Below are positions 21,823-32,256 of a stretch of DNA of 32,717 bases, one piece after another (within the stretch, counting starts at the first letter, position 1; the number at the start of each line of letters is the position of its first letter). Below the pieces are notes generated by a model. It was not told the DNA's origin. It saw only the letters and a program-made list of their open reading frames with translations, and did not search any database. This DNA is from Acidilobaceae archaeon (GTDB lineage: Archaea; Thermoproteota; Thermoprotei_A; Sulfolobales; Acidilobaceae): the NCBI GenBank assembly GCA_026995555.1, contig JALWOJ010000168.1, forward strand, positions 19,416 through 52,132, written 5' to 3'. The translations under genes were made by a program, and so were the position numbers.

Positions 21823-22974
21823 TTGGTCGGAATAGCTGATCTTCCACTTCATAAGGGTAAGGTACCTCCTTGGATGTTAAAGCTTATGGAGAAAATGAGC
21901 GAATCTATCCTTAAAGTCTTAGTTGAAATGTACGGACCTGATGCGGTACTTAAAGGTCTTTCTGACCCCTTTTGGTTTCAAGCATTTAATAACGTTATAG
22001 GGATGGACTGGGACAGCAGCGGCTCGACAACCGTCTTAACTGGAATATTGAAAACTGTAACTTGGAGAAACCCTGAGTTAGGCATTATAGTTCTGGGTGG
22101 GAAGGGTGAGAAGGCCAAAGAAGTGCCTGAGGAAGTTAAAAGGATTCCAAATATATTCAAAATAGATCCCGAGAAAATAGTTAAATATAGCAAGCTTGCA
22201 GCAAGGGTAGACACCTCATTCCTACAGGATGGCTATGAACTTTATCATCATTCTGTGATAATATCTGAGTCTGGCAAAATCATTGTGATTCAACAGGGTA
22301 TGAATCTACACAACAAATTGGCAAGAAGGTATCATATTGATAGGTTTTCTGTTGAAGAACCTCATAGTGCCATAGCGGGCTTTACATCAAATCCTATACT
22401 TAATGCTACTTTAGCCGAGAGCCGTGAGGCCAGAAAAACTTACATAGATATCATATCAGACGGACCTAAGAAAATAATAAAAATGCTCGCGGAGACTAAT
22501 CGAATACTTAAAGGTATTCCAACTCTTGAGTCTTTCTTAAAAAATAATGATGAGAATAAACTTCCAAAGAGACAGCAAAAACCCTATTATAAACCAATAC
22601 AACCTAGTCCACAGTTAAGAAAGGCTCTGGAAGACCTCTCAAATTTCTCACCAAGTAATGATATAGAATTATGTCTAGCGCCTGGATTAGGACCTAAAGT
22701 GATTAGAGCCCTAGCTTTAATAGCAGATTTAATATACAACATTCCAACGAGCACAAAAGACTCGCTGACTCATCCTCTCGACCCGTTTGCTTATGCCTAT
22801 GCCGTAGGCGGTAAGGATAGGGTGCCTTACCCTTATAATAGGAAGACTGTTGAAAAAGTTGTCCTTACTCTAGAGGAGGCTGTTGAACTTGCTAAACTTG
22901 GTAAAAAAGAAAAGCTAAGGGTCATATTAAGACTCAGGAGGTTGTTGGACAGGATAAGGTACTTAGATTCTTAG
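21823..22974 (+). CDS. DUF763 family protein
   Basis: 383 aa, TTG start. MVGIADLPLHKGKVPPWMLKLM... and long central QQGMNL..ARRYH and ...PHSAIAGF... blocks recognised as DUF763. Confidence 0.85.
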   Translation: MVGIADLPLHKGKVPPWMLKLMEKMSESILKVLVEMYGPDAVLKGLSDPFWFQAFNNVIGMDWDSSGSTTVLTGILKTVTWRNPELGIIVLGGKGEKAKEVPEEVKRIPNIFKIDPEKIVKYSKLAARVDTSFLQDGYELYHHSVIISESGKIIVIQQGMNLHNKLARRYHIDRFSVEEPHSAIAGFTSNPILNATLAESREARKTYIDIISDGPKKIIKMLAETNRILKGIPTLESFLKNNDENKLPKRQQKPYYKPIQPSPQLRKALEDLSNFSPSNDIELCLAPGLGPKVIRALALIADLIYNIPTSTKDSLTHPLDPFAYAYAVGGKDRVPYPYNRKTVEKVVLTLEEAVELAKLGKKEKLRVILRLRRLLDRIRYLDS

Positions 22975-25541: not shown

Positions 25542-25892
25542 CTAAACCTTAATTATCCTCGATATCTTTTTTAACCTTTCTACTTTATCTAGGATTTTTT
25601 CTTTAATTGTTTCGATGTTATTGGATATAATAAAAAGTCCTTTAGGATCTAGGAGGGATTCGTGACAGGTTCTAGGACTAGTAGTAATTTTAATGATTAG
25701 ATTATCGTTGCTACCACTGAATATATAAAGGAAGAAAACGAAACCTTTGGCATCAACACTTATCTCTACACACTCTCCCAAAGAGGAAGGTTTAGTAACC
25801 TTAAATCCTCTCTCTCTAAGAAACTCTACGAGAGACTTAACATTGTCCATGAGAGAGCTACTCATGTCGACATCGCCCAATAGTCTTTTCAA
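25542..25892 (-). CDS. Hypothetical protein
   Basis: 116-aa ORF, MKRLLGDVDMSSSLMDNVKSLVEFLRERGFKVTKPSSLGECVEIS... Fills the gap with plausible codon usage. No family recognised. Confidence 0.55.
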   Translation of the reverse strand: MKRLLGDVDMSSSLMDNVKSLVEFLRERGFKVTKPSSLGECVEISVDAKGFVFFLYIFSGSNDNLIIKITTSPRTCHESLLDPKGLFIISNNIETIKEKILDKVERLKKISRIIKV

Positions 25893-25928: not shown

Positions 25929-26858
25929 TTGGTGAAAAGTTTAGTGAAGTGTAGAGAGCTAAAAATTAGTTCTCTAGGCTATTCAACAATGGAAAACATA
26001 CCAATATATCACTTTGATCCTGGTCATACGGCCTTAAGGCTGATAAGCGTTCCTTTATTCAAGATACCCATAAACTTTCCTACAGATTTTCTCGAAAATC
26101 TTAACAGAGATCCCTCCGCCTACTCCTACAAATGTGTCGATATAACTGACCTTATTGAGCTGGCTAAGAGGTGGAGCGTTAGAGCTATTTTTCTTGATGG
26201 AATAGAACCACTCTCTATTCCCTACATAGACGTTTGCTTAAAAGAGTTAAAAGATGTAGGATTTCATGTGGGAGCCAGAACTCAAGGTGTCATCTCTTCT
26301 AAGACAGTTATGGAACTTGTTGATAACTCTATTCTCGACTTTCTCTTAGTTGATGTAAGTCCAGAGGGCTATTTTGACGTTGAAACGAAAATAACTGTTT
26401 ATAACTTTCTTCGTGAACTAACTTCCACAGATCTACATGTCGAAGTAGTTGTTCATATGGATGTGGAAAAGCCTCCACTTTTAGTGCCAATCATAAATAA
26501 TATAAGGAAAAGGAACATACCCCTGCATATAAAGGTTTATAATCCTAAAGGATTGGGATATAATCCCTTTTTAAAACTAACTTCAAGGAGCTTAGACTAT
26601 GTGTATGTACATGCGGGCGGTTTTTCCTTGCTCGACACGATATGTCCTAACTGTAAGAACTACATCGCTATAAGAGAAAGGGGTGTTCTGGTTAAACTTG
26701 AGCTTGCAGAAGATCTTAAGTGCCCCAAATGCGGAACACGTATACTTTTTCGGGGAGAAATTTCCAAGATGACCCCGAGAAGAGTGGTTAGAGAAACCAG
26801 AGGTGAGGTTATTTGGTATCATCTGAAGGCACTTCCTCTAAGGATAAGGAACTGTTAA
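25929..26858 (+). CDS. Radical-SAM-like paralogue lacking the CX3CX2C Fe-S motif, with C-terminal zinc ribbon
   Basis: 309 aa. IPIYHFDPGHTALRLISVPLFKIPINFPTDFLENLN aligns by eye with KPLMHFYPGSTVLSISTVGCNFFCKFCQNWEIS of the next gene, without the cysteines. The C-terminal CPNC-x22-CPKC ribbon has the same spacing as the next gene's CPRC-x22-CPRC. Confidence 0.7.
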   Translation: MVKSLVKCRELKISSLGYSTMENIPIYHFDPGHTALRLISVPLFKIPINFPTDFLENLNRDPSAYSYKCVDITDLIELAKRWSVRAIFLDGIEPLSIPYIDVCLKELKDVGFHVGARTQGVISSKTVMELVDNSILDFLLVDVSPEGYFDVETKITVYNFLRELTSTDLHVEVVVHMDVEKPPLLVPIINNIRKRNIPLHIKVYNPKGLGYNPFLKLTSRSLDYVYVHAGGFSLLDTICPNCKNYIAIRERGVLVKLELAEDLKCPKCGTRILFRGEISKMTPRRVVRETRGEVIWYHLKALPLRIRNC

Positions 26859-27934
26859 AGAAACCTTATGTGAGATTAGCCAGATTTTGGGAGCCTTTAA
26901 AAGACAAACCTGGATATGTAAGGTGTAACCTTTGTCATAGAAGGTGTATTATAGCTCCTGGAAAATATGGAGTTTGTGGAGTTCGAAAAAATATAGATGG
27001 GAAACTATATGTCCTTGTTTATGGTTTACTTACCGCTATGAACTTAGACCCGATAGAGAAAAAGCCTTTAATGCATTTCTACCCTGGAAGTACCGTTTTG
27101 AGTATATCTACTGTTGGTTGCAACTTCTTCTGCAAATTCTGTCAAAACTGGGAAATAAGCCAAAGCAGATTGGAAAAAGGGCTTTATGGTGAATATAAAA
27201 GTCCTGAAGAAGTCGTAAAGGCGGCCCTCGAATGGAAAGCTGATGGAATAACTTATACTTATAACGAGCCGACTATTTTTTACGAATTCATGTACGATAC
27301 TGCAAAGCTTGCTAAGGAAAAGGGGCTTTTCAATACGATGGTTACAAACGGATATATGACACCAGAGGCGATTAAAGAACTAGGCCCCTACATGGATGCT
27401 GCTACCGTCGATTTCAAGGGAGGAGGAAATAAAGAGTTCTACAGAAAGTTCATGGGTGTTCCAGATCCAGATCCCATCTTTGACTCAATATTAGAAATGA
27501 AAAGGCAGGGCTGGTGGATAGAAATAACGAATCTTGTCGTTCCAAAAGTTGGTGATAAAGAGGAAGACATTAGAAGACTAGCAAGGTGGATAGTTGAGAA
27601 TCTAGGCGATGAAACTCCTTTTCACTTGCTAAGATTTCATCCTGATTACCTGATGAGAGACTTTCCTGTAACACCGGTCAAAACTCTTGAAAAACTGGCT
27701 AAGATAGCTATGGGTGAAGGCCTAAAGCATGTATATATAGGGAACGTTCCGGGCCATCCATTGGAGAATACATATTGCCCTAGATGTGGATATCCCGTTA
27801 TTGAGAGAATGGGCTTTAGTATAGTAGCTTGGAAATTGAAAAAAGGCAACGTTTGTCCTAGATGCGGATATAAGCTTAATATAAGGGGAGAATATAGAGG
27901 AAAGAACTTGAGATTTCCGCTAAGTTTACTTTAG
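26813..27934 (+). CDS. AmmeMemoRadiSam-system-type radical SAM protein (PflA-like)
   Basis: 373 aa. CNLCHRRC-IIAPGKYGVCGVR, Fe-S motif GCNFFCKFCQNWEIS, TYNEPTIFYEFMYD, C-terminal ribbon CPRCGYPVIERMGF...VCPRCGYKLNIRG. TTG start at 26813 overlaps the upstream gene; GTG near 26869 is an alternative. Confidence 0.9.
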   Translation: MVSSEGTSSKDKELLKKPYVRLARFWEPLKDKPGYVRCNLCHRRCIIAPGKYGVCGVRKNIDGKLYVLVYGLLTAMNLDPIEKKPLMHFYPGSTVLSISTVGCNFFCKFCQNWEISQSRLEKGLYGEYKSPEEVVKAALEWKADGITYTYNEPTIFYEFMYDTAKLAKEKGLFNTMVTNGYMTPEAIKELGPYMDAATVDFKGGGNKEFYRKFMGVPDPDPIFDSILEMKRQGWWIEITNLVVPKVGDKEEDIRRLARWIVENLGDETPFHLLRFHPDYLMRDFPVTPVKTLEKLAKIAMGEGLKHVYIGNVPGHPLENTYCPRCGYPVIERMGFSIVAWKLKKGNVCPRCGYKLNIRGEYRGKNLRFPLSLL

Positions 27935-28156: not shown

Positions 28157-28441
28157 TTGAAGTTCTGTCCTAAGTGTGGAGGAATAATGGTACCCAGAAA
28201 GAAAAACGGTAAGATAGTTCTAGTTTGTACACGTTGTGGATATGAAATGGAGGCTAGTGAAGATGATCTAAAAAGCTATATGGCTTCGTCCAAGGCCGAG
28301 AAAGAGTCACATGTCAAAACTACTGGCGAGATCTCTGAGGTCAAGACCGCGAGCTCTGAGAAGAACAAAGAGGAACTTGAACAGGCTAGGGAGAACTATT
28401 ATGAACTTGTCCTCGACCAGTTAGGAGAATATGGAGAGTAA
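28157..28441 (+). CDS. TFS/RpoM-like N-terminal zinc-ribbon protein lacking the C-terminal ribbon
   Basis: 94 aa, TTG start. MKFCPKCGGIMVPRKKNGKIVLVCTRCGYEME matches the RPB9/TFS N-ribbon, followed by an acidic tail ending ELVLDQLGEYGE with no second CxxC pair. Confidence 0.75.
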   Translation: MKFCPKCGGIMVPRKKNGKIVLVCTRCGYEMEASEDDLKSYMASSKAEKESHVKTTGEISEVKTASSEKNKEELEQARENYYELVLDQLGEYGE

Positions 28442-28481: not shown

Positions 28482-29210
28482 TTAAGATTTAGATACCAGG
28501 TTTAGATTTTCAAGTTCCTTAGATGCTTCATCAAGATCTTTATGAGTATCTATACTTCTCCAATAATACTCCTTTAAGCTATATTTTACAGCTTTTAGTC
28601 TTCCTTCAGCTGCCAATTTAGGAAAGACTAGTTTTTCTAAGTCGCCCTCCTCAGGCACATAATTAAATATCTCAGGTTTCATAGCATAGACTCCAGCGTT
28701 TATCCAATATTCTTCTAACACAGGTTTTTCTCTAAAACCCCTTATTAAATTGTTATTGTCTATATCTAACACACCATATGGACTTTTCAGTTGAACTGCT
28801 GCCATAGAAGCTATCACATTATTATCAAGAGAATTTAAAAGTGGTCTGGGATCTATGTTCGTTATTATGTCACCATTTAGAACAAGAAATCTATCTCTTT
28901 TTGATAAAATTCCAGAGGCATTCTTCAATGCACCTGCTGTACCTAAAGGTTCGTCCTCGACACTGTAAACTATAGTGACACCGTATTTAGATCCACTTCC
29001 CAACTCTTCGATAATCTTCTCCTTCAGCCAACCGGCCATAACTAATATCTCAGTGACACCGTATTTCTTAAGCCATTCGATTTGATGAACTATTATAGGT
29101 TTTCCAGCAACATGGAGAAGAGGCTTTGGAATTTTCTCTGTGAGAGGCCTTAACCTTTTTCCATAACCTCCTGCCAAAATAGCTGCTAACTCTCCCAAAG
29201 CGCTCCCCAT
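28482..29210 (-). CDS. NDP-sugar pyrophosphorylase / nucleotidyltransferase
   Basis: 242 aa. AAILAGGYGKRLRPLTEKIPKPLLHVAGKPII, VLNGDIITNIDP, WINAGVYAMKPEIF. Confidence 0.92.
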   Translation of the reverse strand: MGSALGELAAILAGGYGKRLRPLTEKIPKPLLHVAGKPIIVHQIEWLKKYGVTEILVMAGWLKEKIIEELGSGSKYGVTIVYSVEDEPLGTAGALKNASGILSKRDRFLVLNGDIITNIDPRPLLNSLDNNVIASMAAVQLKSPYGVLDIDNNNLIRGFREKPVLEEYWINAGVYAMKPEIFNYVPEEGDLEKLVFPKLAAEGRLKAVKYSLKEYYWRSIDTHKDLDEASKELENLNLVSKS

Positions 29211-30649: not shown

Positions 30650-30845
30650 CCTTAATAGGAAAGTAAAAAGGGTTCTGAGAGGAAGATTACACTTGACCAA
30701 GTGGTTACTTAAATGTACAGAATGTGGAAAAGAATGGATACTTTCAGCAAGTTTCCCTTTAGACAAAATGGGTAGAATCTATCATTACTGTCCTTATTGT
30801 AAAAAGAATACCTTTCACATAGTTGTTAGGAAGATAGAGGATTAA
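30615..30845 (+). CDS. Small zinc-finger protein, function unknown (start uncertain)
   Basis: 76 aa. CTECGKEWILSASFPLDKMGRIYHYCPYCKKNTFHIVV. The N-terminal part overlaps the previous gene; a TTG at LTKWLLKC is an alternative start. Confidence 0.6.
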   Translation: MKKYIYFRKRGSLNRKVKRVLRGRLHLTKWLLKCTECGKEWILSASFPLDKMGRIYHYCPYCKKNTFHIVVRKIED

Positions 30846-32256
30846 GTTCTATTTCTGGAGAGTTAGATCTTAAAACGGATAATTCTTCAATAAAGGCTTC
30901 TAAGCTCATAGTTTCTTGTTCTGTTTTGCTTCTTCTCCTTACAGTTACCGTATTGCTTTGAGCCTCTTTACTACCAACAACTACTATATAAGGCGTCCAA
31001 AGTCTTGCCGCCGTTCTTATTCTTGTTCCTAGACTTCTTGTTGGAGGATCTAAATATACTCTAACTAAATTCTCTATCAAACTTTTAATCATAACCGAAT
31101 AACTCATATTTTCTTCTTTTACAGGTATTATAGCAACCTGGAAGGGCGCTAACCAAAATGGAAATTGAGGAGTCTTTCCTTCCTCTGCAAGTCTTAGACC
31201 ATGGTCTAGTAAGGATTTAATTATATTTAGAAGAGGTCCTAAGAAGACTCCCTGAAATCCTCGTACCTTTAAAGACCCCCCGATAGGAACAAGACCCTTT
31301 GCCCTTGTTTTATAGAAGAACATCACTCCGTTGAATTCTAGGTCATAGTTTATTGTCAAACCAGTTTTTCCTACTTTTAATTCTATTATATGACTAGAAA
31401 TTTCGGGCATAAGATCATTAAAAGTGCTTAGATCTACGTTAGAGCTGTTCGAGGAACCGATGACTATTTCCTCCCCTGGAATATTAGCAGTTTTAATAAC
31501 AGGCTCCTTAACCCCGTACCTGACGGTATCCAAGACATCTTTGAGTATAAAGAAAATTTCCTGATCTAAGTCTTTAGTTAAAGAGTTTCTGCCTATACCT
31601 CCAGAAAACATGTATTCTTTCGCTCTAAGTGTCACAAGAGACCATTTTCTAATTTCGTTTATTAGTACGTAGCCCATACCCCTTAAGTTGGGGTAAACAC
31701 CAAATCTTTCAAAAAGCTCTATTGCTTTCTGGTCCCAAATTTTCTTATTTCCAAATTCAGTGGGAAGGTGTCCTTCTTTAGCAGCCTCACTTACGGTTAT
31801 TGTTTTTTCTTCCTTGTGCAGATAGAAAGCTTTTTGTGCTGAAGTCCTTGATCTTAGAGTTCTTGAAAGTTCGCACATAGGATGACCAGCACAAAAAACT
31901 TTGAAAGACTTGTACCAACCAAAGGGAGCTCTATGAACGTCGTAGCCCGACATTTTCCTTAACTTTTCCTCCATTCTTACAAGTACGTCATGTGCCTTTT
32001 TAGGTGGAGCTAGGTCTTGACTTAAATGTGCAAAAGGATAAATTAGTATTTTCTTTATCTTTACTCTCTTTGCATGTTCAATTATCTCTTTTATTGCAAG
32101 CTCTATCTCAGAACTTCCATCCTCTGACTCAACTGAGACAAAGGCCACAACAGACTCTCCTATATTCTCCTCCTTAGGTTCATCAGGCGGACTATCTATT
32201 GCGGGCTCTACAGCTTTGTACCAGGTATCCTTTGAGTGCATTAAAAGTATTTTCAT
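30826..32256 (-). CDS. ThrRS-ed: threonyl-tRNA synthetase editing plus anticodon-binding protein without an intact catalytic core
   Basis: 476 aa. N-terminal archaeal ThrRS editing domain (MKILLMHSKDTWYKAVEPA...YPFAHLSQDLAPPKKAHDVL...HRAPFGWYKSFKVFCAGHPMCELSRT). C-terminal anticodon-binding domain (FPFWLAPFQVAIIPV). The middle lacks recognisable class II ThrRS motif 2 and zinc ligands. Confidence 0.82.
   Translation of the reverse strand: MKILLMHSKDTWYKAVEPAIDSPPDEPKEENIGESVVAFVSVESEDGSSEIELAIKEIIEHAKRVKIKKILIYPFAHLSQDLAPPKKAHDVLVRMEEKLRKMSGYDVHRAPFGWYKSFKVFCAGHPMCELSRTLRSRTSAQKAFYLHKEEKTITVSEAAKEGHLPTEFGNKKIWDQKAIELFERFGVYPNLRGMGYVLINEIRKWSLVTLRAKEYMFSGGIGRNSLTKDLDQEIFFILKDVLDTVRYGVKEPVIKTANIPGEEIVIGSSNSSNVDLSTFNDLMPEISSHIIELKVGKTGLTINYDLEFNGVMFFYKTRAKGLVPIGGSLKVRGFQGVFLGPLLNIIKSLLDHGLRLAEEGKTPQFPFWLAPFQVAIIPVKEENMSYSVMIKSLIENLVRVYLDPPTRSLGTRIRTAARLWTPYIVVVGSKEAQSNTVTVRRRSKTEQETMSLEAFIEELSVLRSNSPEIELNPLSS

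Follow-up and report, generated by a model that had tools for sequence, protein, structure and literature searches.

The stretch of DNA analysed here (the window) comprises 32,717 nucleotides of a contig from an Acidilobaceae archaeon and carries two overlapping forward-strand genes at the positions and with the lengths given in an earlier note on this sequence. The upstream gene encodes a 309-aa protein, here named PsA, whose frame is open throughout, and the gene just downstream encodes the 373-aa radical-SAM protein of the AmmeMemoRadiSam system (referred to below as the enzyme), whose cysteines C103, C107 and C110 are numbered from the 373-aa open reading frame. Families within the order are coded f1 to f11, f1 being the family of the window. 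The locus contains the following features:

25929..26858, forward strand: PsA, Cys-less paralogue of the AmmeMemoRadiSam enzyme, 309 aa (BLASTP, hhalign, AlphaFold/Foldseek, family survey)
26055..26078, forward strand: lost CxxxCxxC site in PsA, with L43, P47 and F50 opposite C103, C107 and C110 of the enzyme (hhalign, MAFFT)
26442..26444, forward strand: E172 of PsA, equivalent to E237 of the enzyme, the sole non-ribbon residue kept in all paralogue groups and the enzyme (column table)
26643..26732, forward strand: zinc-ribbon cysteines C239, C242, C265 and C268 of PsA (CPxC-x22-CPxC)
26813..26858, forward strand: 46-nt overlap of the PsA and enzyme genes; the next in-frame start, GTG at 26870, drops the conserved ELLxKPYVR
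26813..27934, forward strand: AmmeMemoRadiSam system radical SAM enzyme, 373 aa, motif intact (TIGR04337, 342.5 bits against a cut-off of 220; CNFFCKFC)
26924..26977, forward strand: N-terminal cysteines C38, C41, C45 and C55 of the enzyme, without counterpart in the window PsA and kept in f4, f7 and f10 paralogues
27119..27142, forward strand: intact CxxxCxxC of the enzyme (CNFFCKFC)
27776..27865, forward strand: zinc ribbon of the enzyme
28157..28441, forward strand: transcription factor S-like gene, conserved downstream neighbour of the pair in f1 (TIGR01384 match below cut-off; synteny)
28482..29210, reverse strand: sugar-phosphate nucleotidyltransferase-like gene, the next conserved f1 neighbour

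PsA and the AmmeMemoRadiSam enzyme are true paralogues. The two window proteins, which the earlier note had aligned by eye, match in BLASTP (E 1e-9 over 298 aa), and the radical-SAM relationship proposed there also emerges when a PsA profile built from 21 family homologues is compared with the enzyme profile by hhalign (probability 99.35%, E 6e-21). The AlphaFold model of PsA (pLDDT 82, pTM 0.85) contains a partial TIM barrel of the radical-SAM type, and its top PDB match in Foldseek, the pyruvate formate-lyase activating enzyme (PFL-AE; E 2e-5), is also the top match of the enzyme model (pLDDT 92, pTM 0.90; E 7e-13). The solved structures that resemble the PsA model best are PFL-AE and QueE (PDB 3c8f and 5tgs), at TM-scores of only 0.44-0.58; both are catalytic proteins with an intact cluster and are not known to have a zinc ribbon. 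As sequence, profile and structure prediction agree, a radical-SAM fold of PsA is supported. The window PsA, at 15.1 bits, falls short of the TIGR04337 cut-off of 220 bits, and the Pfam radical-SAM model gives it 13 bits.

The CxxxCxxC motif for the [4Fe-4S] cluster does not occur in the window PsA: hhalign places L43, P47 and F50 opposite the three cysteines of the enzyme, in agreement with the loss of all three Fe-S ligands described before. None of the other reading frames restores the motif, and a hidden cluster motif in another frame is thus ruled out. The four-cysteine motif found at the N-terminus of the enzyme is missing as well. The C-terminal ribbon has the spacing CPxC-x22-CPxC in both proteins, as had been noted, is followed by FRGE or IRGE, and keeps its four cysteines in every aligned PsA homologue. 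Outside the ribbon and apart from E172, residues E22 and R249 are kept in nearly every PsA group and H28 and H200 in most groups, f3 and f5 excepted; in the enzyme, all five of these residues and the ribbon cysteines are invariant. A column comparison reveals no counterpart in PsA of the D-x-K lysine K202 of the enzyme. Conversely, PsA has features without equivalent in the enzyme, namely G91, the C-terminal W296 and a near-invariant basic residue at position 117, which is K in the intact forms and R in f1, the enzyme having V. G91-I-E93 of the window PsA may correspond to the GGE-type SAM-binding motif; 96% of f1 proteins have the glycine and 73% the glutamate. Read from the sequences, this pattern of conservation would fit a binding surface that was kept and a radical chemistry that was lost.

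AmmeMemoRadiSam systems are found across archaea and bacteria, and human relatives exist for two of their components; Memo-AMMECR1 systems are reportedly treated in a paper on a dioxygenase superfamily. Memo and AMMECR1 are indeed absent from the window, as the earlier note had it, and both are encoded elsewhere in the same genome (a stretch of assembly Ns breaks AMMECR1), which accordingly contains radical SAM enzyme, Memo and AMMECR1 together. Among 121 genomes of the order, the respective cut-offs are passed by the enzyme in 117, by Memo in 120 and by AMMECR1 in 119. A first survey for PsA gave a match in all 46 well-complete genomes among 60 relatives, many of these matches being the enzyme itself; the two proteins were told apart by their scores against an f1 family profile. 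With this profile, PsA is present in 25/25 f1 genomes that are at least 90% complete (E 1e-58 or better), an orthologue thus existing in every near-complete genome of the family, and it extends to seven more families within the order (f3, f4, f5, f6, f7, f10 and some f8). The same family-profile survey did not find it in f2, f9 and f11, where the enzyme is kept. PsA is an optional extra in an AmmeMemoRadiSam system that is nearly universal. It also occurs in two genomes from other orders of the class, L204 (G135) and L205 (G139), and the pair is conserved in relatives, NCBI records with the tandem arrangement including Acidilobaceae, Caldisphaera, Pyrodictiaceae and Desulfurococcales. A contig scan with the window PsA alone as query found nothing because its relatives are too distant, and the paralogue alignment offered no stretch conserved enough to serve as a query; the enzyme was taken as bait for contig scans in its stead. 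Plasmid records gave no match.

The 46-nt overlap suggests that the two genes form one operon. It is probably real, since enzymes conserve the residues immediately preceding the later GTG, and the pair is thus probably translated from one message. The longest open reading frames overlap in 28 of 29 tandem PsA-enzyme pairs. Among the 25 f1 genomes, PsA lies directly before the enzyme in 15, near it on the opposite strand in two and unlinked in eight; unlinked PsA genes are found in two f1 genera and also in f3, f5, f6 and most of f7. PsA adjoins a PRPP synthetase gene, mostly in divergent orientation, in f3, f4, f5, f10, L104 and part of f1. Beyond the PRPP synthetase gene on the same side follow genes for a TrmG10-like methyltransferase and then RNase Z, and the other side of PsA carries the enzyme, if linked, followed by a GTPase (f3, f4, f8, f10 and L104) or transcription factor S (f1). 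Their shared place beside PRPP synthetase shows that the Cys-bearing and Cys-less PsA proteins are orthologues. The PRPP synthetase gene directly adjoins the enzyme gene, with PsA missing, in two of three f2 genomes and in those f9 genomes that were checked. In the genome of the window, PRPP synthetase is encoded on another contig and the downstream neighbours of the pair are kept. The f3 and f5 enzymes belong to another clade (support 100/99) and are encoded elsewhere, PsA having stayed in place; apparently, the native enzyme was replaced by another clade in f3, f5 and f11. The f3/f5/f11 enzymes L230-L234, L240, L241, L246 and L247, from another clade, have a CxWxC motif. The neighbours are housekeeping genes and provide no functional lead. 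In f6, PsA is about 235 aa long and lies beside the genes for the exosome proteins Rrp4 and Rrp41 (L041:6337-7026, L043:5889-6599 and L202:3916-4632). A 116-aa open reading frame of no known family, at 25542-25892 on the reverse strand of the window, has relatives close to the pair in both L056 and L062.

A motif census of 63 non-identical PsA proteins uncovered graded states of the cluster site. The full CxxxCxxC is found in 14 of them, comprising every f3 and f4 member of the set and L104, and beyond the set it is also intact in L205 and two more f3 proteins. L034 and L048 are among the orthologues in which the motif is intact. Thirteen of the 63 (f5, f7, f10 and L076) are without the first cysteine and have CxxC followed by one residue and a tryptophan. 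The first cysteine is also gone in f1, where one genus keeps a plain CxxC and most other members have two cysteines spaced more widely by an insertion (conservation of the two columns 96% and 85% over 26 rows); the window PsA, in which the second and third cysteines are gone too, is an extreme case. In f6 the cysteine loop is deleted and the tryptophan after the loop is still there, and f8 proteins have at most one of the three cysteines in the alignment. Enzyme-like N-terminal cysteines are still found in PsA proteins of f4, f7, f10 and L205. In the main tree, which was built without the motif columns, PsA and the enzyme form separate clades with 100/100 support, and a second tree agrees. The f3 family (intact) groups as sister to the f5 family (first cysteine lost) with support of 97/92, from which it follows, if lost cysteines do not return, that at least two separate losses of the first cysteine took place; the other cysteines, as far as the sequences tell, went later. 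The tree does not resolve the deep branches of the fast-evolving PsA proteins, two of its long branches join, and it is compatible with one complete loss of the motif as well as with several. In L204 and L205, from two outgroup orders, the two genes stand in tandem and each has its motif intact, so that this is the likely ancestral state. The separate clade, the ancestral place beside PRPP synthetase and the intact outgroup motifs together argue for an old duplication and a later, repeated loss. The earlier proposal of a tandem duplication followed by loss of the cluster thus stands in so far as it describes an ancient tandem pair and a later loss, and falls as an account of a recent or local event.

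Selection on both genes was estimated as dN/dS from close pairs by the method of Nei and Gojobori. Motif-less PsA pairs give 0.12-0.16, with 0.18 for one pair with nearly saturated sites, motif-bearing PsA pairs 0.13 and 0.21, and the enzyme 0.01-0.04. PsA is under constraint, weaker than that on the enzyme of the same genome by a factor of about three to eleven. Over a common set of genomes, PsA proteins are on average 30% identical in pairwise comparison and the enzymes 69%, and PsA evolves about 3.3 times faster. With dN/dS at 0.12-0.18 in motif-less pairs and the ribbon conserved, the view that PsA has not simply decayed is borne out.

We put at roughly one half the probability that PsA is a selected pseudoenzyme serving the AmmeMemoRadiSam enzyme as a non-catalytic partner. 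Its history started, in all likelihood, with a tandem pair beside PRPP synthetase, both members bearing intact cluster motifs; PsA then lost its motif in steps, as sequence, structure prediction, tree and synteny show, and selection has kept it folded, preserving the zinc ribbon, E22, H28, E172, H200, R249 and the basic residue at 117, K and later R. With all three cluster ligands lost, PsA should be unable to cleave SAM canonically. Made from the overlapping operon, it may bind the enzyme or its substrate through barrel and ribbon, and might regulate the enzyme or hold the substrate in position. Such a role is favoured by the shared residues and by the long persistence of the overlapping tandem; the unlinked pairs (8/25 in f1, as well as f3, f5, f6 and most of f7) and the replaced enzyme in f3 and f5 weaken it, and the presence of the enzyme without PsA in f2, f9 and f11 and the roughly 3.3-fold faster evolution of PsA also count against it. 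The more specific proposal that the Acidilobaceae-type enzyme is a heterodimer with a wholly cluster-less subunit, derived from an ancestral pair of active enzymes with intermediates alive in sister families, is weakened by the same unlinked pairs and replaced enzymes and is offered tentatively, at somewhat less than even odds.

Alternatively, PsA may have been neofunctionalised independently, its barrel and ribbon binding a ligand or nucleic acid and its adjacency to the enzyme being merely inherited. The absence of linkage in f3, f5, f6, f7 and two f1 genera, the retention of PsA where the native enzyme was replaced and its own conserved features (basic residue 117, G91 and W296) speak for this, as do neighbours that are often involved in RNA processing (TrmG10-like methyltransferase, RNase Z and the f6 exosome genes), although these are housekeeping genes whose linkage may be meaningless. 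However, the overlapping tandem is kept in several families and an outgroup order, and E22, H28, E172, H200, R249 and the ribbon are common to PsA and the enzyme, and we consider an independent function possible, with a probability of about one in three. That the first cysteine was lost first and the others persist, as CxxC plus W in f5, f7 and f10 and as the two wider-spaced cysteines in most of f1 (96% and 85%, 26 rows), could mean that PsA still holds a metal or other cofactor via the second and third cysteines, the window protein being a late exception. Yet two cysteines do not make a canonical site, sequence alone tells no chemistry, and with none of the three cysteines in the window protein and f6 and at most one in f8, this appears unlikely. 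A decaying copy heading for loss might be suspected from the fast evolution of PsA, its disappearance from f2, f9 and f11 and its reduced length of about 235 aa in f6, but is very improbable given a dN/dS of 0.12-0.18, ribbon cysteines in every aligned homologue and presence in 25/25 near-complete f1 genomes.

Pseudo-radical-SAM proteins are already known as a kind. PsA shares with the TIGR04337 enzyme the fold, the C-terminal double-CPxC ribbon and the conserved E/H/E/H/R residues, and differs from it in lacking the cluster cysteines and the N-terminal cysteine motif and in forming a separate clade. The NCBIfam family TIGR04347 (pseudo_SAM_Halo) is a radical-SAM relative that its curators call pseudo-SAM; with a cut-off of 525 bits, it is not among the matches of the window PsA, and a PsA orthologue scores 19 bits. 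Families of this kind may sit beside intact enzymes. The diphthamide enzyme Dph1-Dph2 is a paralogous heterodimer within a non-canonical radical-SAM system, with a Dph2-Dph2 dimer as its archaeal counterpart and an Fe-S cluster kept in both Dph1 and Dph2 (PMC11048331); its family is unrelated to the PsA pair and has no Pfam match here. The searched literature on pseudo or degenerate radical-SAM proteins and on AmmeMemoRadiSam has nothing on this pair and describes no cluster-less paralogue of the AmmeMemoRadiSam enzyme, and the wider literature may have one. Intact, one-cysteine-lost and cluster-less forms of a single orthologous locus make up a series that amounts to a natural experiment on the origin of a radical-SAM pseudoenzyme and makes the idea of a partner testable, and a selected non-catalytic twin would highlight residues and surfaces whose importance is independent of radical chemistry, such as E22, H28, E172, H200 and the ribbon.

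A further AmmeMemoRadiSam-like clade has CxFxCPWC-type motifs (L033:6628-7674, L035:6283-7347, L045:1718-2770, L050:6081-7163 and L105:1333-2433), and its member in Culexmicrobium (L105) stands in tandem with an ordinary AmmeMemoRadiSam enzyme. In Bathyarchaeota, a different radical-SAM protein of CTMRCxHC type (about 363 aa) regularly follows the enzyme (L107:7058-8251), and the same place is taken by this type in L112-L114, L118, L120, L125-L130, L132, L134 and L137-L140; association of the enzyme with another radical-SAM gene appears to be recurrent. Elsewhere in the window, the reverse-strand gene at 30826-32256 encodes an archaeal threonyl-tRNA editing domain and an anticodon-binding domain with no matched catalytic domain between them, and resembles the split ThrRS editing protein already known, and a full-length DUF763 protein is encoded at 21823-22974 on the forward strand.
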